From: Streptomyces sp. HUAS ZL42
GTDB lineage: Bacteria > Actinomycetota > Actinomycetes > Streptomycetales > Streptomycetaceae
Assembly (NCBI RefSeq): GCF_040782645.1
Contig: NZ_CP160403.1
Location: 4,092,001-4,156,000, forward strand
Reading direction: 5' to 3'
Length of the DNA: 64,000 nt
Positions 17,744 through 53,816 of this stretch are shown in pieces. Both the position numbers and the translations under genes were made by a program. The notes below the pieces were generated by a model. That model saw only the letters and a list, made by a program, of their open reading frames with translations. It did not search any database and was not told where the DNA came from. Positions within the stretch are counted from its first letter, which is position 1, and every line of letters starts with the position of its first letter.

Positions 17744-17823
17744 TGTTCTTCTCCTGTGTGTCTGCCCCGGCCGTGTCAGGTACCAGGGTCAGTATCCGAG
17801 CGGGCGGGTTTGCCCGTCGGAGA

Positions 17824-40647: not shown

Positions 40648-41100
40648 GGTGAGCTCCGTTTCGGCTGATCAGGACAAGGGGACGCCGGAAGCATACTGGC
40701 AGGGCCGCTCCTGGGATGTTGTTGACAGGGCATCATGGGATCCGCGTCTGTCCCGCAACAACCCTTCACTTTCATGGGAGTTGGCCAAAATACTCACGCG
40801 GAGCGTGAGGCGTCTTCACGGAATCCGACAGGGTCGCCGGCCGCCCCACACTGAGGCCGGCGCTGAGCGGCAGGAGTCGGCGGCCTCTCCCTCTCGGGCG
40901 TATACGAGCCAGCTTCCAGGCCTTGGTTGCATTGCCGGGTGCCTTGTTGCCCCGCCCAGGACAGCACCGCCTCACACTGCGCCTCACGCCACCGGAATCC
41001 GACTTCTCGCGCTGCGGGTGATGCCACCTCTATGTCCGAGAAACGAGGTGAGGGTGAAAGAACCCCACCAAGCCCCACCCCTCCCACCCGCAGCCCAAGC
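40648..41100. other. Non-coding interval between the lipoprotein operon and the HTH paralogue
   Basis: I see no gene. It contains a 7-bp inverted repeat CTCACGC-GGA-GCGTGAG at 40793-40809. From about 41052 it is homologous to the region upstream of the second HTH gene (52763 onward), including AACCCCACCAAGCCCCACCC. Confidence 0.5.
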
Positions 41101-41163
41101 TCACTCGGGCGGGTGAACATCCCCGGCTCGGCTGGTTTTCGCGGCCCCCAACTCCCCTACGCT
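41101..41163 (+). promoter_or_regulatory. Palindromic operator and -10 box of HTH paralogue 1
   Basis: The palindrome TCACTCGGGCGGGTGA (41101-41116) lies 41 bases before TACGCT (41158-41163). The same pair with the same spacing stands before the other paralogue, where the palindrome reads TCACCCGCGCGAGTGA. No good -35 is present, so activator-dependent transcription is possible. Confidence 0.55.
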
Positions 41164-41189
41164 CAGCGCAACAACCGCAGACATACATC

Positions 41190-41251
41190 GGCCCCCGCCG
41201 GGACGGCAATCCCGTTGCGAGGGCCTGACCACCGAGGAAGAGGTAGCTTCC
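41190..41251 (+). promoter_or_regulatory. Two-hairpin leader RNA of HTH paralogue 1
   Basis: Hairpin I, 41190-41225: GGCCC/GGGCC, then CGC/GCG, then ACGG/CCGT with loop CAATC. Hairpin II, 41236-41251: GGAAG/CTTCC with loop AGGTAG; its 5' arm is part of the ribosome-binding site GAGGAAG. The ATG at 41254 follows. Hairpin I shows a compensatory change against paralogue 2. This is a candidate cis-regulatory RNA, not matched to any family I know. Confidence 0.6.
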
Positions 41252-41253
41252 CG

Positions 41254-42089
41254 ATGGGTACCCAAAACCCTAGCGTGCCCCCGCGTGCCCAGTCAGCCGT
41301 CGGCGGCAACCACCCGGGGCGACCCCACGCCCCCGTGTTCACCCCTCGGGCGTGACCCACGAGAACACCCGCCACACCACGCGCTTCACGGTGATCGGCA
41401 ACCACCTCACCCAGCACCCGGACCTCTCCCTCCTCGCCATTGGCCTGGCCTGCCACATCCAGTCGCTCCCCACCGGCGCCCGCGTCGACATCAAGACCCT
41501 TGCCGACCGCTTCCCCGAGGGGGCGACCCGCATCGCAGCCGCTCTGCGCGAGCTGAAGGCACACGGCTACCTGCGCCACGAACGCCACCGCAACCCGCAC
41601 GATCTCCTGCAACCAGCCCACAGCTGCCCCGCGTCGCACCACCACCCCCATCCGAGCCCCACATCCCACGCACCCACGCCACCACCGGAGCCCGACGAGG
41701 TGCCCGTCGCCCCCGGAGACAACCACACGCCCCGCAAGAAGCACCGAAAGCCCCTCCCAGCCGTGCCGCGCCCCACCTACCCCGCCCCCACTCTTCTTCA
41801 GCAGGCCACCGATCTCCTCGCCGACCCGCGCCGTCACGACCCCCATCTCCTCCTCTCCACCTGCGACACCACCCATCTGGCCCCCGGCGTCGCCGCCTGG
41901 CTCGAACGCGACGTGCCCCCAACCGCCGATCTGCCCCCCGAAGGCCCGCGCCGTCCCGCCGCCCTCCTTGCCCACCGCCTCACCACCCAGCTGCCACCCC
42001 CGACTGTCCGGCACCCCCTCCGCAACTGCGACGGCTGCGACCGCGCCTTCCGTTCCCCCAGCCCGGCATGTGCCGGACATGCACCATGA
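41254..42089 (+). pseudogene. Frameshifted paralogue of the winged-helix/zinc-ribbon HTH protein
   Basis: ATG 41254 opens MGTQNPSVPPRAQSAVGG, matching paralogue 2, but stops at 41355. The homologous reading continues in another frame from GTG 41352 (overlapping GTGA) with FTVIGNHLTQHPDLSLLAIG and DIKTLADRFPEGATRI. A middle patch (HDLLQPAHSC where paralogue 2 has TVSCNQPG) is out of frame. The C-terminal zinc ribbon is broken: CDGCDRAFRSP continues wrongly, and the second CRTC is encoded in another frame. Promoter and leader remain intact. It may still give a truncated HTH protein by GTGA coupling. Confidence 0.65.
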
Positions 42090-51043: not shown

Positions 51044-51253
51044 TCAGCCCATGGCGGCGTACGGCACGAAGTCGGCCCAGGCCTCCGGCGCGAGCGCGAG
51101 TCGGGGCCCGGCGATGTTCTTGGAGTCGCGGACGTGGATGGTGGTGGGGGTGGTGGCGACTTCGACGCAGGAGTCGCCCTCGCTGCTGCTGCTGTAGCTG
51201 CTCTTGAACCATGCCAGGTCGGAGGCGTCCCCGGCCGAGATCTTGCGGATCAT
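51044..51253 (-). CDS. DUF397 protein
   Basis: 69 residues. WFKSSYSSSSEGDSCVEVAT, IHVRDSKNIAGPRLALAPEA and WADFVPYA are the DUF397 pattern. These small proteins accompany Scr1-type XRE regulators in Streptomyces and may act with them as antagonist pairs. ATGA overlap with the XRE gene shows coupling. Confidence 0.88.
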   Translation of the reverse strand: MIRKISAGDASDLAWFKSSYSSSSEGDSCVEVATTPTTIHVRDSKNIAGPRLALAPEAWADFVPYAAMG

Positions 51254-52125
51254 GTCTCCCCCAGCAGTTGCTCGATGAAGGCCGTCGACTCACGGGGTGC
51301 GAGAGCCTGAGCCCGGATGATGCCATACCGCAGTTCAAGGATACGGAGCTGCCTGGGCTCGGAAACCGGTCGGCCGTTGGCCACGGCCGGTGAACGCCCC
51401 ACTGCCGAGCCGTCAGCGAACTTCAGCACCTCGATTCCACCGGCCAGCCCGGCATGCTCCTCGCGATCCATCGGCATCACCTGAAGCTCGACGTTCCGCA
51501 ACTGCCCTGCCTCCAGCAGACGTTCAAGCTGGCGACGCAGCGCCGCCCTCCCGCCGAGCGGGCGTCGAAGCGTCCACTCCTCCAGGACGAAGCTGAGCTC
51601 AGGCGCCGGGTCCCGTTCGAAGACTTCCTTGCGGGCCACGCGGGCGGCGATGAACCGCTCCACCTCGTCCGCGGTGTACGCAGGGCGGCGCATCAGGAGA
51701 AGCCCACGGGCGTACTCCGGCGTCTGCAACAACCCGTGAATGTTCAGCGGGTCGTAGAGCTGAAGCTCGACCGCCTTCGCCTCCGACTGCGCCAGGTCCC
51801 GCACCTTCTTCGGGTACCGGACCCTCCGTACATCCTCCTTCATCGCCGAGAGCAACCCACCGGCACCCAGCACCTCGTCCGCCTTGTCCAGGTACTCGGG
51901 CCGAGGGATCCGCTTCCCGCTTTCGATCTTGTAGACCATGTCCTCGCCGTACCCGACCGCCGGCCCGAAGTCGGCGGCGCGCATCCCCACGGCCTCGCGC
52001 CGCAGCTTCAACTGCCGCCCCACGGTCGCGACGACGGCCACTCCCCAGTCGTCGTCCGGGTCCACATCCCAACCCGGCTCGCCCGCCTCGCCCTTGAGCC
52101 GTACCGCCTCGCCGTCCACCGACAT
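51250..52125 (-). CDS. XRE-family regulator with C-terminal DUF5753 (Scr1-like) domain
   Basis: 291 residues from ATG 52125, preceded by GGAGGG. HTH in about residues 35-85: VGRQLKLRREAVGMRAADFG and YKIESGKRIPRPEYLDKADE. The DUF5753 domain has QLYDPLNIHGLLQTPEYARG and VLEEWTLRRPLGGRAALRRQ. It pairs with the following DUF397 gene. It is divergent from the ATPase gene, sharing a 154-base intergenic region. Confidence 0.88.
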   Translation of the reverse strand: MSVDGEAVRLKGEAGEPGWDVDPDDDWGVAVVATVGRQLKLRREAVGMRAADFGPAVGYGEDMVYKIESGKRIPRPEYLDKADEVLGAGGLLSAMKEDVRRVRYPKKVRDLAQSEAKAVELQLYDPLNIHGLLQTPEYARGLLLMRRPAYTADEVERFIAARVARKEVFERDPAPELSFVLEEWTLRRPLGGRAALRRQLERLLEAGQLRNVELQVMPMDREEHAGLAGGIEVLKFADGSAVGRSPAVANGRPVSEPRQLRILELRYGIIRAQALAPRESTAFIEQLLGET

Positions 52126-52189
52126 CCCGCACCCTCCGTCGTACGCGTCGTACCGCCACGCCCCTACCCGTGTGCGCCACCCCGACAGC

Positions 52190-52217
52190 CCGGACACGAC
52201 CGGACAACGTCCGGACA
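52190..52217. promoter_or_regulatory. Three CCGGACA direct repeats in the XRE/ATPase divergent promoter region
   Basis: CCGGACA begins at 52190, 52200 and 52211, about one helical turn apart. It could be a regulator binding array, for example for the XRE protein. Not tested. Confidence 0.4.
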
Positions 52218-52279: not shown

Positions 52280-52826
52280 GTGAATCATGGAACTACCGCC
52301 CCCACGGCCCAACTCGGCAGCGCTATGCGCAACTTCAGCGTCCTGCTGTCCCCCACACCCCGCGGAGCCCGCCTCGCCCGTCTGCTCGCCACCGAACAGC
52401 TCCGCGCCTGGGGACTCTCGTGGGAAGCGCCGATCCACATCGTCGCCGAGCTGGCGGCCAACGCGGTCACCCACGGCCGCGTCCCCGGCCGGGACTTCCG
52501 GCTCACGCTGTACGTCGTCGGCGACACCCTCCGCATCGAAGTCACCGACACACGCGGGGACCGTCTCCCCTGTGCCCAACGCCCCATCCTCGAGGCGGAG
52601 TCCGGCCGAGGTCTGCTCCTCGTGGGCACCCTGGCCGATCGTTGGGGGGGTCTCGGAAGGCCCGGCGCCACGCAAGACGGTATGGGCCGAACTTGTTCTC
52701 CCACCGGAACCCGGCGAACCGTGCTCCGGTGCCACGGGCGGTCTTCCCCAAGGACCACCGGTGAAAGGACCCCACCAAGCCCCACCCCTCCTCCCGCCTG
52801 CGGCAGCGCCTCACCCGCGCGAGTGA
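52280..52826 (+). pseudogene. RsbW-type ATP-binding protein (HATPase) with a one-base homopolymer frameshift
   Basis: GTG 52280 or ATG 52325. FSVLLSPTPRGARLARLLAT, HIVAELAANAVTHGRVPGRD (N-box with Glu/Asn), then EVTDTRGDR and ESGRGLLLVGTLADRWG. A run of seven G at about 52644-52650 then shifts the frame. With six G it would read DRWGVSEGPAPRKTVWAELV, the family's normal C-terminus, ending at 52826. As sequenced, translation continues in the wrong frame to 52984. A sequencing error or a slippage site are both possible. Confidence 0.75.
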
Positions 52827-52873
52827 ACATCACCAACTCGGCTGCATTGCGAGCCGGTTGCCTGCCCTACGCT
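52811..52873 (+). promoter_or_regulatory. Palindromic operator and -10 box of HTH paralogue 2
   Basis: TCACCCGCGCGAGTGA (52811-52826), then TACGCT at 52868-52873, with the same 41-base gap as paralogue 1. A weak TTGCGA (52847-52852) could serve as -35 with a 15-base spacer. It overlaps the end of the corrected ATPase reading frame. Confidence 0.55.
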
Positions 52874-52899
52874 CGGCGCAACAACCGCAGACATGCGAC

Positions 52900-52962
52900 G
52901 GCCCCCGCCGGGACTGGCATCCCAGTGCGAGGGCCTGACCAACGAGGAAGGTCGCAACTTCC
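52900..52962 (+). promoter_or_regulatory. Two-hairpin leader RNA of HTH paralogue 2
   Basis: Hairpin I, 52900-52935: GGCCC/GGGCC, CGC/GCG, ACTGG/CCAGT with loop CATC. Hairpin II, 52946-52962: GGAAG/CTTCC around GTCGCAA, sequestering the Shine-Dalgarno bases. ATG 52965 follows. Compared with paralogue 1, helix ACTGG/CCAGT replaces ACGG/CCGT on both strands, which supports pairing. Confidence 0.6.
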
Positions 52963-52964
52963 TG

Positions 52965-53816
52965 ATGGATACCCAGAACCCTAGCGTGCCGACGCAAGCC
53001 CAGTCCCGCCTTGCCGCCAACAACCACCCGCACAGGCGGCCCCACTCCGGCGGCCTCACCCACGACAACACCCGCCACACCACCCGCTTCACGGTGATCG
53101 GCAACCACCTGGCCCAGCACTCGGAGCTCTCGCTCCTCGCCATCGGCCTGGCCGTGCACATCCAGTCGCTGCCCAAGGGGGCCCGCGTCGACATCAAGAC
53201 CCTCGCCGCCCGCTTCCCCGAGGGCGCGGCGCGGATCGCCGCCGCCCTGCGCGAGCTGGAGGCCCACGGCTACCTGCGCCGCACCCGGGAACGGGTCGGC
53301 GACGGCCGTATCGTCACCCGCACGGTCTCCTGCAACCAGCCCGGAGCCCGGCACACCGACCACGATCAGCCCGTGCGGCGGGCGGCGCGGCCCGCGCCGA
53401 AGAAGCGCGCCCTCCCCGCCGTACCGCAGCCGGCCTTCCCCTCCCCCGCGCTCCTCCAGGCGGCGGCCGATCTCCTGACCGAACTCCGTCGCCAGGACCC
53501 CCGCCTCCTCCTCTCCGCCTGCGACACCCGGCACCTCGCCCCCGGAGTCGCCGTCTGGCTGGAGCGCGACGTCAGCGCCACGGCCGTACGACAGGCCCTG
53601 ACCGCAGATCTGCCACCCGAAGGCCTACGACGCCCCGCAGCCCTCCTGGCCCACCGGCTCACCGCTCAGCTTCCGCCCTCGCCGCCGTTCCGAGCCCCAG
53701 CCCCGCCCCCTGACACACGGCACCCGCTCCAGACCTGCGACGGCTGCGACCGAGCCTTCCGCTCCCCCGTCCCCGGCCGCTGCCGCGACTGCCGATCCGA
53801 TCTCACGGCCGCCTAG
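52965..53816 (+). CDS. Winged-helix/zinc-ribbon HTH protein (intact paralogue)
   Basis: 283 residues from ATG 52965, MDTQNPSVPTQAQSRLAAN. The winged-helix region is about residues 38-120 (FTVIGNHLAQHSELSLLAIG, DIKTLAARFPEGAARIAAAL, LEAHGYLRRTRERVG). A helical part follows, and the C-terminal ribbon is CDGCDRAF ... GRCRDCRSD (two Cys-x2-Cys pairs). It is a DNA-binding protein of a Streptomyces-type family whose regulon is unknown. It lies 139 bases after the corrected ATPase frame. Confidence 0.75.
   Translation: MDTQNPSVPTQAQSRLAANNHPHRRPHSGGLTHDNTRHTTRFTVIGNHLAQHSELSLLAIGLAVHIQSLPKGARVDIKTLAARFPEGAARIAAALRELEAHGYLRRTRERVGDGRIVTRTVSCNQPGARHTDHDQPVRRAARPAPKKRALPAVPQPAFPSPALLQAAADLLTELRRQDPRLLLSACDTRHLAPGVAVWLERDVSATAVRQALTADLPPEGLRRPAALLAHRLTAQLPPSPPFRAPAPPPDTRHPLQTCDGCDRAFRSPVPGRCRDCRSDLTAA

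Follow-up and report, generated by a model that had tools for sequence, protein, structure and literature searches.

The whole 64,000-nucleotide stretch of DNA analysed here (the window; Streptomyces sp. HUAS ZL42, NZ_CP160403.1, positions 4,092,001 to 4,156,000) holds two copies of a two-hairpin element, each before a gene of one wHTH family. These hairpins belong to the catalogued Streptomyces RNA scr4677, and the evidence points to a small RNA transcribed against the gene rather than to a new kind of leader. Our main reading, to which we give a probability of roughly three in four, is that an overlapping sense/antisense unit lies upstream of each wHTH gene, with a scr4677-type antisense RNA covering the start of the gene. 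This reading draws on a -10 box, both hairpins, a strand preference, covariation, a U-rich tail and the association with the gene, all sequence-based, and from it we infer the exact 5' end, loop-loop pairing and translational repression.

The sequence confirms both leaders where a sequence-only reading had placed them (41190-41251 and 52900-52962), and their two-hairpin architecture is conserved far beyond the source genome. That reading knew of no described RNA family; RF02673 (Rfam 15), however, spans both leaders over the whole model (positions 1-246) at scores far above the cut-off of 41 bits (Table 1), and its consensus structure already contains GGCCC/GGGCC, CGC/GCG, GGGA/UCCC and GGAAG/CUUCC, that is, both hairpins. 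Four RF02673 matches occur in the source genome, and at least one (E up to 0.001) was found in 243 of the 295 Streptomyces genomes searched. The likeness to published scr4677 comprises the same region, the same downstream gene family and the Rfam scores, both copies being directly upstream of a SCO4676-type wHTH gene, frameshifted in copy 1.

According to Hindra et al. (2014; PMC3896431), scr4677 is transcribed in S. coelicolor antisense to both SCO4677 and SCO4676, is 70 nt in size (as given in their discussion), and has its 5' end 14 nt upstream of the annotated SCO4676 start; the SCO4676 mRNA begins ~50 nt upstream of its start and overlaps scr4677 by 37 nt. S. avermitilis and S. venezuelae also express homologues, and SCO4677 is a reported BldD target (PMC3896431). 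In a reannotation of S. lividans, RF02673 is entered as lacking RNA-seq validation (PMC8079986). RF02673 differs from the published RNA in being much longer (246 positions against ~70 nt) and in its strand, which is that of the SCO4676-like genes; the Rfam model appears to be on the wrong strand. The anatomy described below (a coding-start antisense box, an anti-RBS hairpin and a terminator) was found in no title or abstract on scr4677, SCO4676 or RF02673 in a search whose coverage leaves out most subscription journals, and the available portions of Hindra et al. 2014 (PMC3896431) were not found to describe the promoter box, the terminator or the start-codon pairing.

Table 1. Positions in the window of the two copies of the element and of the genes that follow them.
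Feature	Position	Strand	Score or support
RF02673 (scr4677) match, copy 1	41002..41253	+ (gene's own strand)	189.2 bits
RF02673 (scr4677) match, copy 2	52722..52964	+ (gene's own strand)	198.2 bits
Copy 1 predicted antisense RNA, scr4677 type, ~72 nt, from ~+8 of ATG to end of hairpin I	41190..41261	-	inferred: -10 box, folds, model R1
Copy 2 predicted antisense RNA, scr4677 type, ~73 nt	52900..52972	-	inferred: -10 box, folds, model R1
Copy 1 hairpin I, GGCCC/GGGCC, CG(C)/(G)CG, GGGA/TCCC; terminator-like for antisense RNA	41190..41225	.	
Copy 2 hairpin I, same helices as copy 1	52900..52935	.	
Copy 1 hairpin II, GGAAG/CTTCC plus CCA paired to TGG of ATGG	41229..41257	.	
Copy 2 hairpin II, GGAAG/CTTCC plus CCA paired to TGG of ATGG	52939..52968	.	
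Copy 1 GGAAG/CTTCC arms	41236-41240/41247-41251		
Copy 2 GGAAG/CTTCC arms	52946-52950/52958-52962		
Copy 1 antisense -10 box TAGGGT (TANNNT), within codons 5-7	41267..41272	-	sequence and conservation
Copy 2 antisense -10 box TAGGGT (TANNNT), within codons 5-7	52978..52983	-	sequence and conservation
Copy 1 TACGCT, candidate sense -10 box	41158..41163	+	TA[CT]G[CT]T conservation
Copy 2 TACGCT, candidate sense -10 box	52868..52873	+	TA[CT]G[CT]T conservation
Copy 1 gene, same family as copy 2 gene, frameshifted near 5' end, HTH frame open from ~41295	41254..42089	+	
Copy 2 gene, 283-aa SCO4676-like protein, weak HTH_36 match, Cys pairs at C-terminus	52965..53816	+	

The wHTH genes start directly after the leaders, at the ATGs at 41254 (copy 1) and 52965 (copy 2). 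In copy 1 the ATG frame meets a stop after 33 codons and homologue residues 11-270 are open in another frame, so the frameshift is real and the leader is indeed retained beside a frameshifted gene. The copy 2 protein had no NCBIfam match up to E 1, and a profile of the wHTH family matched no PDB sequence at E up to 1. A mobile-element origin of the gene was considered and set aside: plasmid sequences gave a single weak match (44% identity over 37% of the query), and phage sequences gave none at E 1e-5. Other features of the window include a conserved CACCAAGCCCCACCCCTCCC stretch and a TCAC...GTGA palindrome 5' of the hairpins and inside the RF02673 match (41002-41120 and 52722-52840), and an RF03132 L17 ribosomal protein leader (17762-17820, minus strand, 63.9 bits). 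The SCO4677-like HATPase gene that precedes copy 2 departs from its usual C-terminal frame around seven consecutive G (52644-52650), through either a frameshift or a sequencing indel, and no stop was found before the copy 2 ATG. Divergent from this HATPase gene lies an XRE-type HTH_31/DUF5753 regulator (51250-52197, minus strand), an arrangement which we take to be that of whiJ-like clusters.

Relatives were found mostly by protein homology and the rest through Rfam. An initial 168 loci yielded 140 distinct upstreams; 80 regions of weaker protein homologues, hand-picked among the matches listed, were added to give a pooled set of 220, and ten Rfam matches from other genera of the family brought the total to 230. 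Of the 80 weaker-homologue regions, 79 match the pattern of two hairpins and a start codon; in the remaining one (L232), the element is separated from the ATG by extra sequence. In 171 of the 220 upstreams, TA[CT]G[CT]T is present at -94 to -124 as a candidate sense -10 box.

The proposal that hairpin II masks an SD-like GGAAG is borne out, both arms being exactly GGAAG and CTTCC in 214 of the 224 upstreams that parsed (230 in total), with a loop of 4 to 14 nt and a mean unpaired probability of 0.23 for AGGA (212 leaders). The hairpin further extends across the start codon, CCA pairing with TGG of ATGG, and the fourth linker base and coding position +4 are C-G in 209 cases, T-A in 9, C.A in 2 and T.G in none (n = 220, after omission of L203 and L272-L275, which could not be parsed). 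In a sister family of the order, GCA with ATGC occupies the same place, a third Watson-Crick type. GGAAG starts 16-26 nt upstream of the ATG, compared with a spacing of 4-9 nt for RBS motifs in S. lividans (PMC8079986), so the start is unusual and probably weak. By eye, a number of divergent copies (L290, L294, L295 and L296) have an SD-like stretch in the loop instead; SD-like 4-mers occur in 88 of 220 hairpin II loops against 67 in shuffled loops, a weak excess. Hairpin II is seemingly duplicated in tandem in L015, L124 and L157, and partly so in L232; the upper copy in L015 has, by eye, its own in-frame ATG.

The third helix of hairpin I had been read as variable, ACGG/CCGT in one copy against ACTGG/CCAGT in the other. 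Among the 212 of 230 upstreams holding the pattern G[GA]GA...T[CT][CT]C, a filter that itself favours GGGA/TCCC, that helix was predicted in 1 and GGGA/TCCC in 211, so the compensatory change cited for it provides no evidence. Genuine pair replacements in the hairpins are GAGA/TCTC and GACCC/GGGTC, with GGTG/CACC in other genera.

Inside the coding start, counted from the A of ATG, +14 is A in 220/220, +18 is T in 219/220 and +19 is A in 220/220 distinct upstreams, followed by C at +21 (205/220) and G at +22 (220/220). Position +18 is the third position of codon 6, where T reaches 99% compared with 3.9% over codons 21-150, and codon 6 encodes varied residues (P, L, T, I, V, N, S and others). 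On the opposite strand, the fixed bases at +14, +18 and +19 spell TANNNT. GGGTAC/GGGTAT, which we take to be SigB/SigF-like, was dropped as the antisense -10, given that those bases vary and TANNNT does not. A weaker -35-like stretch lies at sense ~+38 to +43, 18 nt beyond the box; TAnnnT is the reported Streptomyces -10 consensus (PMC8079986). Antisense transcription would be expected to start at ~+7/+8 of the ATG, and from +8 the distance is, by arithmetic, 72 nt to the end of hairpin I and ~37 nt to its foot. An RNA starting near +8 would be complementary to both the SD and the start codon, whereas one with its 5' end at -14 would miss the start codon. The predicted start is unlike the published 5' end unless SCO4676 is annotated from codon 8 (+22), in which case the published -14 would equal +8, which is arithmetic and not proof.

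As sense RNA, the hairpin I region (-66..-28) folds with a mean of -22.8 kcal/mol against -14.4 for shuffles (168 distinct sequences), and the hairpin II region (-27..+4) with -8.6 against -4.7 (198 distinct sequences). Across -68..+8 (223 distinct sequences), the mean is -33.8 kcal/mol as sense (shuffles -24.1) and -42.6 as antisense (shuffles -29.1). The antisense fold is favoured in 223/223 sequences but also in 1037 of the 1115 shuffles, where composition alone favours it, so only the extra size of the antisense advantage counts. RNAalifold on 219 aligned leaders gave -27.2 kcal/mol for antisense compared with -10.2 for sense, and the antisense version is the more stable for 133 of the 142 distinct hairpin I sequences. 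Hairpin I columns 15 and 46 are CA in 146 leaders, TA in 62, CG in 11 and TG in none, and can pair in 219/219 as antisense and in 73/219 as sense. In 80 diverse sequences, the antisense-derived structure has 90.7% of its cells paired as antisense versus 81.5% as sense; of 1989 cells, 229 hold wobbles that pair only as antisense and 46 only as sense, and the C.A mismatches of the sense strand stand where the antisense RNA has G.U. Five loci with a rearranged 5' half or a duplicated or altered hairpin II (L091, L015, L124, L157 and L232) were left out of the strand and fold comparisons, the linker/+4 count and the tree-based test below. The sense fold is, in our interpretation, partly a mirror image of the antisense RNA, and both strands may matter.

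The predicted antisense RNA of ~72 nt would carry a 5' hairpin complementary to the SD and start codon, then a 3' hairpin whose tail is usually rich in U. In the antisense direction, U makes up 35% of the 12 nt after hairpin I in 216 Streptomyces copies and 46% in the ten from other genera, compared with 12% in a control stretch, and 4 of 14 copies from the sister family end in UUUGUUUUGUUUUGU or near it. Fewer than five U were present in the 15 nt after hairpin I in 7 of 20 divergent Streptomyces copies, and the two window copies have no long U run there. Hairpin I is thus terminator-like for the antisense RNA, which falls short of a proven terminator.

The view, held by the sequence-only reading, that structure resides chiefly in the sense leader is not supported by these data. 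In its strict form, hairpin II of the mRNA would itself hide the SD and AUG until opened by some signal, and antisense transcription would be incidental. The sense leader does fold better than its shuffles, its SD-like AGGA is mostly paired, and the CCA/TGG and linker/+4 pairs are Watson-Crick on both strands; Hindra et al. (PMC3896431) did not expect RBS pairing, yet they discussed altered RBS access and folded the region with mFold. We nevertheless consider a sense-only leader unlikely, since it leaves unaccounted for the invariant antisense -10 bases within the coding sequence, the sense C.A mismatches at antisense G.U positions and the better antisense pairing, and since hairpin I with its U-rich stretch makes a terminator in the antisense direction only.

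The sequence-only reading was to fall if an Rfam family already covered the leaders, as RF02673 does, or if covariation was absent, which it is not by the shuffle-based measure. In a MAFFT alignment of 80 sequences (75 diverse rows from the 217 of the tree-based test plus L271-L275), scored on the antisense fold of copy 1 and hence on a structure derived from the antisense strand, 13 of 25 pairs showed double changes, and none of 500 shuffles reached either this number or the paired fraction given above; slid structures used as a control had 44-67% of cells paired. RNAalifold, unaided, predicted 18 pairs on this alignment, 7 with double changes. Against a tree-based null (L271 removed beforehand), no structural pair had E < 1 and the maximum of the null itself exceeded every real score, in a test limited by relatedness and near-invariant stems; the linker/+4 pair ranked second of 3916 (E 4.7). 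The replacement of stem sequences with pairing kept in divergent copies also speaks against the inverted repeats being DNA operators for the wHTH protein, as do wobble pairs that favour one strand and the expression of plasmid-borne scr4677 in a SCO4676 deletion strain (PMC3896431). An operator function would suit a gene product that is a predicted DNA binder and arms that are nearly invariant within Streptomyces, and we regard it as highly improbable.

The proposed search of Streptomyces by covariance model was run with a model of the antisense RNA (R1). R1 detected four copies in the source genome (E 1.8e-14 to 2.2e-13) and 77 matches in 19 of 20 genomes, hand-chosen, many for high copy number; at least 69 of the 77 lie head-on (on the opposite strand) upstream of a wHTH gene, among the protein matches listed. 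Inspection of 20 of the 24 matches with E >= 1.0e-6 revealed two antisense hairpins in every one; the hairpin II stem differs from GGAAG/CTTCC in 19, and 19 have a start codon with ANNNTA (the sense view of the box) at +14 or +11. A weak fifth copy in the source genome (L280, E 0.004; G000:C1:8413848-8413919, minus strand) stands before a different small gene, beside a gene whose product looks to be of the DUF6907 type, and the element may not be confined to wHTH genes (see also L300); ANNNTA is missing in both L280 and L300. With stricter filters, matches across the family were obtained in 40 of 81 genomes and 10 of 17 genera. In the sister family, a sequence-pattern (regex) search found no element, but the structural model detected it at 14 of 16 loci (E 4e-4 to 0.33 in a small search, so the matches are individually weak), with a start codon and ANNNTA at +11 in 14/14 copies.

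Under our main reading, a promoter within codons 5-7 would fire against the gene and yield the ~72-nt scr4677-type RNA, whose 5' hairpin would be complementary to the RBS and start codon and whose 3' hairpin would, together with the usually U-rich tail, act as terminator. In the mRNA, the same DNA would fold as the mirror hairpin holding the SD-like sequence and AUG. The antisense RNA would most likely meet the mRNA loop to loop and spread over the SD and AUG, and once spread it would block translation and lower the mRNA. In S. coelicolor, overexpression of scr4677 left the SCO4676 transcript similar or slightly reduced and raised a read-through transcript, with no phenotype; the authors were unable to measure SCO4676 protein, and the scr4677/SCO4676 transcript pair resisted degradation by RNase III (PMC3896431). 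Such slight effects on SCO4676 transcripts would agree with an antisense RNA that acts mainly in trans or by transcriptional interference instead of on its own RBS, and some antisense loops are, by eye, C/U-rich and could meet other SDs. This too seems improbable to us, in view of the complement of SD and AUG in the conserved 5' hairpin, the covariation of the linker/+4 pair at each gene, and the persistence of the element at its own gene.

Cis-antisense RNAs that cover an RBS include RNA-OUT, SymR and plasmid copy-control RNAs. The predicted scr4677-type unit resembles them in its small size, its two hairpins and its full complementarity to the site where translation of a single gene begins, and is unlike them in being chromosomal, with several copies per genome, a promoter box in the coding sequence and the start codon in a conserved hairpin. 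It shares with RBS-sequestering leaders (RNA thermometers and translational riboswitches) a hairpin holding the SD-like sequence and start codon, whereas here it is the antisense strand that has the stronger conserved fold. On a broader proposal our judgement is evenly balanced: scr4677 would be one branch of an order-wide, multi-copy antisense family, with a box in codons 4-7, an anti-RBS/anti-start hairpin and a terminator, beside fast-diverging wHTH/Cys4 genes, whose stems change if pairing is kept and whose variable loops could give specificity for the own mRNA, as in plasmid copy control.

Collectively, what had been taken for a new leader RNA becomes a correction and extension of the known but poorly understood scr4677 family. 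Published scr4677 may overlap the RBS and start codon, contrary to what had been assumed; codon 2 contains a base that covaries with the leader, and the coding sequence is therefore constrained by RNA pairing; and the anatomy of the element is kept from Streptomyces to the sister family.
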